A DNA stretch of 64,000 nucleotides from Rathayibacter oskolensis (GTDB taxonomy: Bacteria; Actinomycetota; Actinomycetes; Actinomycetales; Microbacteriaceae). The stretch spans positions 1-64,000 of the forward strand of contig NZ_FXBM01000002.1 in NCBI RefSeq assembly GCF_900177245.1, read 5' to 3'. The notes below the pieces were generated by a model. That model was not told the origin of the DNA, ran no database searches, and worked only from the letters and a program-made list of their open reading frames with translations. Of this stretch, positions 55,930 through 59,355 are shown one piece after another; position 1 is the first letter of the stretch; each line of letters opens with the position of its first letter. A program made the translations under genes and the position numbers.

Positions 55930-55994
55930 GCCCCTAGTCCTACCACTGCGAGCAGAGCGTCCGCGCGGCCTTGCCCTCGGCCTACGGTGGAGGG

Positions 55995-57143
55995 ATGACC
56001 GTCGTGAGTGCTGAGCCGATCGAGATCCTGCGCCGGCGCACGAGCGCCAAGTGGCGCCTGTTCGCCGCCGACGTGCTGCCGCTGTTCGTCGCCGAGACCG
56101 ACTACCCGCTCGCCCCCGTGATCGCCGAGCGGGTCGTCGAGCGCGTGCGCGCCTCCGACACCGGCTACGCGTTCGGGCCCGGTCCCCTCGCGGGGGCGTT
56201 CGCCGCGTTCGCCGAGCGCCGCTGGGGCTGGCAGGTCGATCCGGCGCACGTGCGGAGCGCGACCGATGTGAGCGTCGCGATCGTCGAGACGCTGCGCGTC
56301 CTCCTCGCTCCCGGCAGCCGGGTGGTCGTCACGCCGCCGGTGTACGCGCCGTTCTTCGAGCTGATCCCGGAGGCGGGGCACGAGGTGGTCGAGGTCGCGC
56401 TGCTCGAGGAGTCGGGCGCCCACCGACTCGATCTCGGCGGCATCGAGCGCGCCCTCGCGGCCGGGGCCGCGGCGGTCCTGCTGTGCAACCCGCACAATCC
56501 CCTCGGGCTGGCGCATCCGGCCGCCGAGCTCGCCGAGCTGGCGGTGCTCGCCGAGCGCTACGGCGCGCTCGTCGTCTCGGACGAGATCCACGGGCCGCTG
56601 GCCCGATCGAGCGACGGCTTCACGCCGTTCCTCTCGGTCTCGGAGGCGGCGGCCAGGGTGGGCGTGGGCGTCACCTCCGCGAGCAAGGGCTGGAACCTCG
56701 CGGGGCTCAAGTGCGCCCTCATCGTGACCGCCGACGAGCGCCTCCGTGCGGTGCTCGAGCGGATGCCGGAGGAGGTCGCCTGGCGGACGGGCCTGCTCGG
56801 ACTGCACGCGAGCGTCGCCGCGTTCGAGGAGGCGGAGGACTGGCTCGACGGCGTGATCGCGTCGGTCCGCGAGAGCGGAGCCCTGCTCGAGACCCTGCTC
56901 GCCCGGCAGCTCCCCGTGGCCCGCTACCGACCGCCGGGGGCGGGCTACCTCGCCTGGATCGACCTGCGCGGAGCCGGGCTGGGGGACGACCCCGCCGCGG
57001 TGATCCTGGCGGAGGGTCGCGTGGCGCTCACCTCGGGACTCGACTTCGGTCGCGAGGGACGCGGCTTCGTGCGGCTGAACCTCGCCTGCGCTCCCGAGGT
57101 GCTCGAGGAGGCGGTGTCCCGCATCGCCGCGGTGGCGCGCTGA
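55995..57143 (+). CDS. PLP-dependent aminotransferase, MalY/PatB-like (cystathionine beta-lyase group)
   Basis: 382 residues; GGAGGG before ATG 55995 (a GTG-like start further up is less likely). Fold type I motifs: TPPVYAPFFELIPEAGHEVVEV, LLCNPHNPLGLAHPAAEL, VVSDEIHGPLA, and the Schiff-base Lys in TSASKGWNLAGLKCA. MalY/PatB members cleave cystathionine or cysteine S-conjugates. It is followed by the amine oxidase 42 nt later. Confidence 0.93.
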   Translation: MTVVSAEPIEILRRRTSAKWRLFAADVLPLFVAETDYPLAPVIAERVVERVRASDTGYAFGPGPLAGAFAAFAERRWGWQVDPAHVRSATDVSVAIVETLRVLLAPGSRVVVTPPVYAPFFELIPEAGHEVVEVALLEESGAHRLDLGGIERALAAGAAAVLLCNPHNPLGLAHPAAELAELAVLAERYGALVVSDEIHGPLARSSDGFTPFLSVSEAAARVGVGVTSASKGWNLAGLKCALIVTADERLRAVLERMPEEVAWRTGLLGLHASVAAFEEAEDWLDGVIASVRESGALLETLLARQLPVARYRPPGAGYLAWIDLRGAGLGDDPAAVILAEGRVALTSGLDFGREGRGFVRLNLACAPEVLEEAVSRIAAVAR

Positions 57144-57194
57144 GGGGCGCCCGCGCCTCCGCCCGGAGGTGGGCGAGAACGTAGGATGACGGGG

Positions 57195-58664
57195 ATGACC
57201 ATCGGACGCCGCATCTTCCTCTCGGGGGCCGCCTCGGGGGTCGGCCTCCTGGTCCTCGCGGGGTGCACGCCGCCGCGTCCGACACCGACGCGATCCGTCA
57301 CCGAGGCGCCCGTCCCCACTCCGAGCACCACGGCCGTCCCGACGCCCGCCGCCTTCGTGCGCTCCGACTGGGGCGCCGATCCCTACGCTCTCGGCGCCGC
57401 CTCCTACCTGGCGGTCGGGGCGACGCCCGAGCACCGCGAGGACCTCGCGCAGAACGTGCTCGACCGTCTCTTCTTCGCGGGCGAGGCCACCGACACCGAC
57501 GCGCCGGCGACGCTGCAGGGCGCGTGGAACTCCGGTGTCCGAGCGGCCGGTGAGATCGCCGCGATCGCCGCGGACGGTGAGCGCATCGCGATCATCGGAG
57601 GGGGGCTCTCGGGTGCCGTCGCGGCGCGCCGCCTCGTCGACGCCGGCTACGACGTGACGCTCGTCGAGGCGCGCGAGCGCGTCGGCGGCCGCATCGCCAC
57701 CACCACTCCCGACGGCTGGCCGATCGCGGTCGACAGCGGCGCCTGGGCCCTCGTCGGGGCCGGCCCCGCGCTGCGGGAGAGCGTCCTCGACGCGGGCGTC
57801 TCCACCTCCGCCGTCGACCTGGCGACGGTGCTCTCGGTGACCGACGACGGTGCCGAGGTGGACACCGGCTCCACCGGACCCGACGCGCTCACGCGCGCCC
57901 TCGAATGGGGCGCCGAGCAGTCGCGCGACCTTCCGCTGGCCGAGGCGCTCGCCGGGTCCGGAGCGCCGGATCCCGCGAGCGCGGAGGCGGGAAGCGGCGA
58001 CGGCGACTCGCAGCGGGTCGCCGCCTACCTGGCGGGCGGTGCCGCCCTGCGCACGGGCGCGGCCGCCGCCGAGCTGTCGAGCTGGTACGGGCTGGGCGAC
58101 GCGTCGGCCGCGGTCACCGCGGAGGAGCTGAGCGACGCCTCCGACGACGCCGACGCCGTCGTCACCGACGGTCTCGCGCCGCTCGTCGAGACGCTCCTCG
58201 CCGACGTCGAGGTGTCGCTGCGGGCCGCCGTCAGCGGCATCGGCTACGACGAGGACGGCGCGAGCATCCGGCTCGCGACGGGGGAGTCGTTCACGGCCGA
58301 CCGGGTGCTCGTGACCGTCCCGATCGGCGTGCTCAAGACCGACGCGATCGTGTTCGACCCCGCACTCCCGTTCGCGCACCGCACCGCCATCGCCGCCCTC
58401 GGCTCCGGTGTCGTCGACTCGCTCTGGCTGCGCTTCGACGAGCCGTTCTGGGACACCGGGGCGGTGACCGCGGCACGCTGGTCGCTGATCGGCTCGGACG
58501 CGGGCATCACCGAGTGGGTGAACCTCGAGCCGGTCACGGGAGAGGCCGTGCTCGTCGGGCTCGTCGGCGCCGATCAGGCTCTGTCGCTGCAGGCGCTGAG
58601 CGACGACGAACTGCTCAGGGTCGCGCAGACGGCGCTGGAGCCGTTCGCCGCCGTCTCCGGCTGA
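57195..58664 (+). CDS. Circularly permuted flavin amine oxidase, Tat-type lipoprotein
   Basis: 489 residues from ATG 57195 (an ATG three codons earlier is possible). Residues 1-24 carry GRRIFLSG (Tat-like) and lipobox LAGC. Residues 54-120 hold the segment normally at the C-terminus of flavin amine oxidases: W-GADPYALGA...DRLFFAGEATDT...GAWNSGVRAAGE. The Rossmann FAD motif IAIIGGGLSG (131-140), Glu158 and GGRI follow, then the substrate domain, and the protein ends at ALEPFAAVSG, exactly where the canonical 'trW.dpy' segment would start. The permutation is visible in the sequence; the substrate is unknown. It overlaps the next gene by 50 nt at the 3' end. Confidence 0.9.
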   Translation: MTIGRRIFLSGAASGVGLLVLAGCTPPRPTPTRSVTEAPVPTPSTTAVPTPAAFVRSDWGADPYALGAASYLAVGATPEHREDLAQNVLDRLFFAGEATDTDAPATLQGAWNSGVRAAGEIAAIAADGERIAIIGGGLSGAVAARRLVDAGYDVTLVEARERVGGRIATTTPDGWPIAVDSGAWALVGAGPALRESVLDAGVSTSAVDLATVLSVTDDGAEVDTGSTGPDALTRALEWGAEQSRDLPLAEALAGSGAPDPASAEAGSGDGDSQRVAAYLAGGAALRTGAAAAELSSWYGLGDASAAVTAEELSDASDDADAVVTDGLAPLVETLLADVEVSLRAAVSGIGYDEDGASIRLATGESFTADRVLVTVPIGVLKTDAIVFDPALPFAHRTAIAALGSGVVDSLWLRFDEPFWDTGAVTAARWSLIGSDAGITEWVNLEPVTGEAVLVGLVGADQALSLQALSDDELLRVAQTALEPFAAVSG

Positions 58665-59355
58665 GCTGCTCGCGCAGGCGCGACAGCGGTCCTCGCCACT
58701 CGGTCGTCCTGGGTGCTCCGAAGGGGCGCACCCGGCTGAGCGCGACGACGAAGGCGGCGATGCCCGAGATCAGGCCGAGGACGATCACGTCGTAGAGGAC
58801 GAAGGCGACCGGCCCGTCGACCTGACCGGGGTCGAGGAAGAAGTAGGGGTACCAGCCGATCAGCGCGCCGCGCACCAGCGTGACGACTCCCCAGACGATC
58901 GGGAAGCCGAGGACGGCGAGGGCCGCACGCCAGCGCACGGGCCGCCGGCCGGGCCCGAGGAGCCAGTCGAGGACCGCGAGCGACGGGATGACGAAGTGCA
59001 GCAGTGCGCTCGACCACGGCACGTCGACGCGCACGCCGCGGTTGTTCGCCTCGACGGCGATCAGGCCGAAGACGATGCCCGAGACGACGAGATAGGTGAG
59101 CACGATCGCGCGGAGGGTGCTGAGCCACCGCGGCTCCCGCTCCCGGGCGAGCGCGACCAACCCGGAGAGGCCGAGGACGACGACTCCGGCCATGTTCGAC
59201 TGCGTCGTGAAGTAGGCGAAGAAGTTGTCGATCTGGAAGGCGCGGAACCCGAGCGTGTAGAGGAAGTCGGCGACGAGTCCGACGACACCCAGGCCCGCGA
59301 GCGCGAGTCGGAGGATCGCGAACGCCTTCCGCACACCCGCTCCGATCCGTCGCAC
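58615..59355 (-). CDS. Pr6Pr/FAR-17a-like membrane protein
   Basis: 246 residues, six or seven helices (GTG start). The segment NFFAYFTTQSNMAGVVVLGLSGLVALAR is diagnostic of this family (FxTTQSN), and YPYFFLDPGQVDGPVAFVLYDVIVLG is its second signature. Function unknown; related eukaryotic proteins are fatty-acid-ester hydrolases. The 3' end overlaps the amine oxidase by 50 nt. Confidence 0.88.
   Translation of the reverse strand: MRRIGAGVRKAFAILRLALAGLGVVGLVADFLYTLGFRAFQIDNFFAYFTTQSNMAGVVVLGLSGLVALAREREPRWLSTLRAIVLTYLVVSGIVFGLIAVEANNRGVRVDVPWSSALLHFVIPSLAVLDWLLGPGRRPVRWRAALAVLGFPIVWGVVTLVRGALIGWYPYFFLDPGQVDGPVAFVLYDVIVLGLISGIAAFVVALSRVRPFGAPRTTEWRGPLSRLREQLSRRRRRTAPAPSARP

Follow-up and report, generated by a model that had tools for sequence, protein, structure and literature searches.

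The closest relatives of solved structure to the protein described here are LSD2/KDM1B and LSD1/KDM1A, to which both of its parts are homologous over the catalytic domain and with which it has in common the Rossmann GxGxxG, GGR, FAGE-x-T and SG-x-x-AA motifs. Spermine/polyamine oxidases and monoamine oxidase (MAO) give the same two profile matches with lower scores and have the canonical order of the parts. In canonical amine oxidase structures the termini lie close together, and in MAO the FAD is held by a cysteinyl link. The protein analyzed in this work differs from LSD1 and LSD2 in the swapped order of its parts, in the presence of Ser409 and Ala69 at the positions of Lys661 and Tyr761, respectively, and in a Tat-lipoprotein-type signal. 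Passages of PMC3184146 treat Lys661 of LSD1, which holds a water at flavin N5, and the aromatic-cage residue Tyr761, whose role in positioning the cofactor and the substrate they call crucial; Lys661 is also treated in passages of PMC6099836. A twin-arginine signal is likewise found, together with both profile matches, in three canonical oxidases from other bacteria among our loci (L110, L133 and L150); unlike in the protein studied here, the signal in these three stands directly before the Rossmann domain, with the segment left in its C-terminal place. Natural circular permutation in extracytosolic flavoproteins is also described in passages of PMC11334425, for FMN-bind domains of flavinylated proteins in which a C-terminal helix belonging to the first domain has moved to the far end of the chain; these differ from the present case in having an FMN-bind domain and, according to the same passages, attached FMN. 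Among the matches listed for the open-access literature (judged by titles and abstract openings) we found no permuted amine oxidase, and a search of the open-access literature for a Tat-dependent lipoprotein amine oxidase likewise found none, which fits the view of the initial annotation that such a protein is rarely or never described. Natural circular permutation of a large cofactor-binding fold, with conservation across wide evolutionary distances, is to our knowledge uncommon.

The window analyzed is a stretch of 64,000 nucleotides of Rathayibacter oskolensis (contig NZ_FXBM01000002.1, positions 1 to 64,000), and the features of the gene under study and of its flanks are collected in Table 1. 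An alternative ATG at 57186, which would add three residues, is possible, and the alignment of Microbacterium relatives agrees with the start at 57195. In the translation, the twin arginine at residues 5-6 belongs to an RRIFLSG motif and is followed by a hydrophobic stretch and by the lipobox LAGC at residues 21-24; since Cys24 of this lipobox is the sole cysteine of the protein, a cysteinyl FAD link of the MAO type is excluded. The displaced segment displays WGADPY (59-64), FFAGEAT (93-99) and PATLQGAWNSGVRAA (104-118), and the FAD domain displays IIGGGLSG (133-140) and VEARERVGGR (157-166), the latter including E158 and the GGR at 164-166.

Table 1. Coordinates of the permuted amine-oxidase-like gene, its parts and its neighbors in the window
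Feature	Coordinates	Strand	Evidence and remarks
PatB-like PLP C-S lyase/aminotransferase	55971-57143	+	Directly upstream of the oxidase; 277.9 bits, below the cut-off of 340
Permuted flavin amine-oxidase-like gene	57195..58664	+	489 aa plus stop; ORF translation, Pfam, phmmer
Putative Tat-type lipoprotein signal	57195..57266	+	RR residues 5-6, lipobox LAGC with Cys24; sequence pattern only
Pro/Thr-rich linker, residues 25-53	57267..57353	+	Translation, alignment with relatives
Displaced canonical C-terminal segment, residues 54-123	57354..57563	+	W59, E97, T106, SG-x-x-AA helix; profile matches
Joining linker between canonical C-terminus and N-terminus, residues 124-128	57564..57578	+	Domain-order measurements
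Main domain, residues 129-484	57579..58646	+	Rossmann FAD motif 131-140, GGR, substrate domain, S409 at the LSD1 K661 position
Convergent Pr6Pr family membrane protein gene	58615..59355	-	NF038065, E 2.1e-39; overlaps the 3' end of the oxidase gene by 50 bases

Membership of the PF01593 superfamily by homology is indicated by a score of 194.3 bits against a curated cut-off of 19.8. The best stretch aligns residues 138-482 with positions 1-362 of the 443 in the profile; downstream of it the end of the profile has no match, and a second stretch also passed. In single-sequence phmmer searches, residues 47-123 matched positions 699-775 of the 776 of the LSD2 chain 4gu0 (i-E 6.1e-9) and residues 321-481 matched positions 527-691 of the same chain. 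Likewise, a profile of the N-terminal segment (residues 50-125, 24 sequences) matched LSD2 703-775 with an E-value of 4.7e-18 and a profile of the main domain (residues 129-484, 24 sequences) matched LSD2 338-693 with an E-value of 1.2e-60. In swapped order, the two parts thus cover the LSD2 catalytic domain without overlapping and leave nine residues between them. The displaced segment also matches the C-terminal part of LSD1, of spermine/polyamine oxidases and of MAO in profile searches, and none of 2000 shuffles of the window protein matched either profile at E <= 0.1. Accordingly, the segment with FAGE-x-T and SG-x-x-AA, which in the canonical architecture follows the substrate domain, is present at residues 54-123 rather than at the C-terminus and precedes the Rossmann domain. 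An earlier reading had placed this segment at residues 54-120, ahead of a Rossmann motif at 131-140; the motifs lie at these places, and the segment is delimited here as residues 54-123. The accompanying claim that the C-terminus ends where the segment would normally begin agrees with the mapping of the main domain up to LSD2 693 and of the segment from 703 onward. Both parts occur once, in swapped order, with the old termini joined and the new termini in a former loop, as in a circular permutation. We therefore hypothesize, with a probability of about 0.8, that the window protein is a circularly permuted member of the PF01593 superfamily, produced as a Tat-exported lipoprotein, whose parts would close into the ordinary fold.

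The join between the two parts is short and conserved. Normalized to the profiles, the linker from the segment to the Rossmann domain measures 0-6 residues in all 153 permuted ORFs and 3 residues in 122 of them, while in canonical ORFs (n=32) the gap from the main domain to the segment measures 0-8 residues, and 5-8 in 31 of the 32. It is within this loop of the canonical forms that the permuted chains have their new ends; most permuted frames extend 1-31 residues beyond the main domain, and six, which are cut or broken frames, stop within it. These measurements, the matches to profiles of both parts and the recurrence in many genomes described below support the circular permutation that the initial annotation had proposed.

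A scan of genome contigs returned 319 relatives, the best of which were taken as 79 loci; L001, from Rathayibacter and 86% identical, is among the closest of these. Counted over all loci and the window, with canonical loci fetched deliberately and some genes fetched twice, the domain order was permuted in 153 ORFs (140 distinct) and canonical in 32, which makes 185 classified ORFs; the subset L001-L169 comprised 143 permuted and 25 canonical ORFs. The distribution across genomes was assessed with a junction profile of 137 positions (residues 54-190) that spans the join, only matches across the join being counted. In eight genomes, permuted proteins scored 181.8-208.5 bits near full length and everything else at most 68.8 bits. 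The genome counts, which are rough because the draws overlap, include the centre genome and had only the best first-look candidates scored, were 81 of 249 for the family of the nearest relative, G001 (Microbacteriaceae; 86 passed the E-value limit, 5 of them one-sided, and one of the 81, G020, runs off a contig end), 28 of 394 for its class (41 passed) and 6 of 246 for its phylum, 9 of 247 for the class of G005, an Acidimicrobiaceae MAG (10 passed), and 2 of 289 and 4 of 200 for the class and the phylum, respectively, of the Nitratireductor genome G007 (5 passed in the latter, a Pseudomonadota draw). The same order, which the initial annotation had suggested looking for in related genomes, is thus found in many actinobacteria and a few proteobacteria, and this recurrence speaks for a maintained redesign and not for an error. 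Permuted and canonical homologues coexist in one genome, G002. Matches on Haloarcula plasmids with ambiguous tblastn pieces turned out to be canonical on inspection, as did two matches to the junction profile, one in G322 spanning part of it (L148) and one in G354 (L145). Among viral contigs, the first query returned no relative, and the junction profile returned four partial matches, none across the join. In three permuted relatives (L071, L087 and L106), decay or sequencing error has put part of the main domain into a different frame; the Microbacterium copy among them (L071:4001-5351) consists of three tblastn pieces in different frames, for which the two causes are indistinguishable.

The residues expected to face the FAD are retained in both parts. 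Using LSD1 residue numbers (E801, T810, W751, R316, E308 and R310), columns were counted on the aligned chain where covered, in 148 permuted and 31 canonical rows. In the permuted rows, E801 was kept in 148, T810 in 145 and W751 in 147, and R316 and the first glycine of GxGxxG were kept in 148 each, E308 in 146 and R310 in 141. The Rossmann GxGxxG, the acidic residue after strand 2 and the GGR are all present in the window protein, the three columns counted for this signature being kept in 146-148 of the 148 permuted rows. The kept residues lie in both parts, which is what a single site built jointly by the two would require. In contrast, two active-site residues of amine oxidases, the catalytic lysine and the aromatic-cage residue, are missing from the window protein, given the serine and the alanine mentioned above, and their absence argues against ordinary amine oxidase chemistry. 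The catalytic lysine is found in all 31 canonical rows vs 59 of the 148 permuted rows, and a Tyr or Phe at the position of LSD1 Tyr761 in 31 of 31 vs 70 of 148. When the permuted sequences are reduced to 135 distinct ones, the two residues are kept together in 52 and lost together in 71; in 11 the aromatic residue alone is left, and in 1 the lysine alone. Among the named loci, the losses occur in Rathayibacter, Microbacterium, Naasia and two Microbacteriaceae strains of no named genus, and both residues are retained in the loci from Cryobacterium, Acidimicrobiia and Nitratireductor. The coupling of the two losses is suggestive only and not statistically shown, because the sequences are related: on the tree there are 4 changes per trait, and only 2 independent pairs on supported branches. 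What is new here is that the branch of the window protein has kept the FAD-site residues while it lost the catalytic lysine and the aromatic-cage residue. The label of flavin amine oxidase given by the initial annotation thus holds for ancestry, as the profile matches indicate, and fails for the catalytic residues; with lysine and cage replaced, "amine oxidase" states the ancestry of this branch and not its activity. The permuted relatives that keep lysine and aromatic residue are likely to be amine oxidases. Regarding the Rathayibacter/Microbacterium branch, the replaced residues suggest that it most likely oxidizes some other small substrate or relies on a different acceptor. The step of our reading that we hold with the least confidence is that the window protein and its branch represent an envelope-anchored flavoenzyme that has given up classic amine chemistry, and we put it forward as a tentative proposal at rather less than even odds.

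A Tat-lipoprotein pattern similar to that of the window protein precedes the domains in 131 of the 153 permuted ORFs, and the Tat-lipoprotein signal proposed in the initial annotation is thus supported as a sequence pattern. A twin-arginine pattern without a lipobox was found in 16 of the 153, in one of which (L109) it lies in a GNAT fusion and is not a signal, and neither pattern was found in 6, including L042, L107 and L126, which have little or no upstream frame. Among canonical ORFs the full pattern occurs in 6 of 32, from which we claim no enrichment in the permuted forms, as the pattern missed at least one canonical signal (L110, the same as L176) and the rows were chosen by similarity. 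Based on this pattern, the protein is predicted to be exported via Tat and lipid-anchored at Cys24. Two permuted proteins of the Pseudomonadota draw (L183 and L184) seem to have no signal peptide and start directly at the moved segment, which indicates that permutation and export are separable.

An account of these data in terms of artefact, a truncated or misassembled canonical oxidase that has received an unrelated N-terminal fragment by chance or by an assembly error, could appeal to the PF01593 best stretch, which spans just 362 of the 443 profile positions. Nevertheless, an identical order recurs in many separately assembled genomes, and no ORF of at least 60 aa within the flanks of the loci holds a second copy of the segment or carries it on both sides (0 of 185 classified ORFs). 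A downstream copy in relatives, the sign of truncation or misassembly named in the initial annotation, was therefore looked for and not seen; a solitary segment occurred, in the loci examined, just twice, in the cut frames L069 and L131. In addition, dN/dS (Nei-Gojobori), calculated for the window gene against four relatives from Rathayibacter, was 0.14-0.20 in the moved segment and 0.22-0.27 in the main domain, low values that point to purifying selection on both parts, both of which are maintained. In view of the conservation across genera and two phyla, we consider assembly error or truncation ruled out for practical purposes. In the sequence, the moved canonical C-terminal segment, which contributes residues facing FAD and substrate, is joined to the Rossmann strand by a short linker, and the two pieces would close into the usual fold of amine oxidases around a single FAD held non-covalently. 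Sequence order alone would look the same if completion were intermolecular, the N-terminal segment filling the FAD site of a neighboring chain in a domain-swapped dimer; the 0-6 residue linker, however, fits direct closure if the old termini lie as close as in canonical structures, and we regard the swapped dimer as very unlikely. Folding and FAD loading would occur in the cytoplasm, followed by crossing of the membrane through Tat, and Cys24 would anchor the protein in such a way that the flavin works at the outer face.

The number of permutation events was approached with trees of the main domain, for which 179 rows were thinned at 72% identity to 103, 31 permuted rows were removed by hand and the long-branched L109 was removed, leaving 71 rows, 55 of them permuted. 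On the best tree the form has to change 5 times, and a single change was enough in none of 200 bootstrap trees, results that count in favor of several independent permutations at the same loop. On the other hand, a single permuted clade is not rejected on this tree (p-AU 0.281), the well-supported branches force only 1 change, and the linker falls within the same narrow range in every permuted ORF, so that we lean against independent origins, while granting them a real chance. One permutation event or a few are possible, and the shared breakpoint would favor few. Following the usual model, tandem copies probably fused in frame and the outer parts were then lost; no fused tandem intermediate was found among the 185 classified ORFs. 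L148 contains a head-to-tail pair of canonical amine oxidase frames, of which the second carries a Tat-lipoprotein-like signal; the pair shows only that tandem copies occur. As to function, the loss of both lysine and aromatic residue in 71 of the 135 distinct permuted sequences, the window protein included, would also suit a degenerate, non-catalytic FAD- or ligand-binding protein of the envelope in the Rathayibacter/Microbacterium branch. The near-invariant FAD-site columns over the 148 permuted rows and the low dN/dS argue against such decay and suggest that the cofactor is still in use, and we judge the degenerate reading unlikely. We may speculate, without placing even odds on it, that a separate family of flavoenzymes, most of them exported and spread over two phyla, goes back to one ancient permutation, that the anchor thereby came to lie beside the substrate side, and that one actinobacterial branch left amine chemistry and kept FAD for an undescribed activity in the envelope.

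The permutation reorders the fold of LSD1, MAO and the polyamine oxidases, and it may have escaped notice because the main domain still scores well with the family models. It also offers a natural test of which ends of the amine oxidase fold are free, with permuted and canonical homologues available in the same genome (G002), and a branch in which the known catalytic residues are lost and the cofactor site is kept.

Concerning the gene neighborhood, a Pr6Pr match lies downstream on the opposite strand in 68 of the 77 loci with enough flank; in 62 of the 68 it starts less than 200 bases from the oxidase stop, and in the others at 514-1872 bases. It is absent from nine of the 77, namely L008, L029 and seven loci of Acidimicrobiia, other actinobacteria or Nitratireductor. 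Pr6Pr genes, often in several copies, are present in 213 of 249 Microbacteriaceae genomes vs 81 of 249 for the permuted oxidase, and because they are far commoner, a specific link between the two is not claimed; the adjacency may reflect shared ancestry. A search of the open-access literature for "Pr6Pr" by name found nothing. Outside Microbacteriaceae, the ORFs of nine loci were listed and nine of these ORFs were searched in Pfam; no neighbor common to all nine loci was evident, and a HemD neighbor is common to L077 and L104. Two Acidimicrobiia-like loci encode, upstream of oxidases that keep the lysine and on the opposite strand (L075:145-2441 and L077:644-2820), a class-III aminotransferase and a carbon-nitrogen hydrolase, neighbors that hint at amine breakdown in that branch. 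In the Acidimicrobiaceae MAG draw, L109:835-2874 encodes in one frame a GNAT domain (PF00583, residues 74-182) followed by PF01593 (residues 307-673), an arrangement that recalls the acetylpolyamine pathway.
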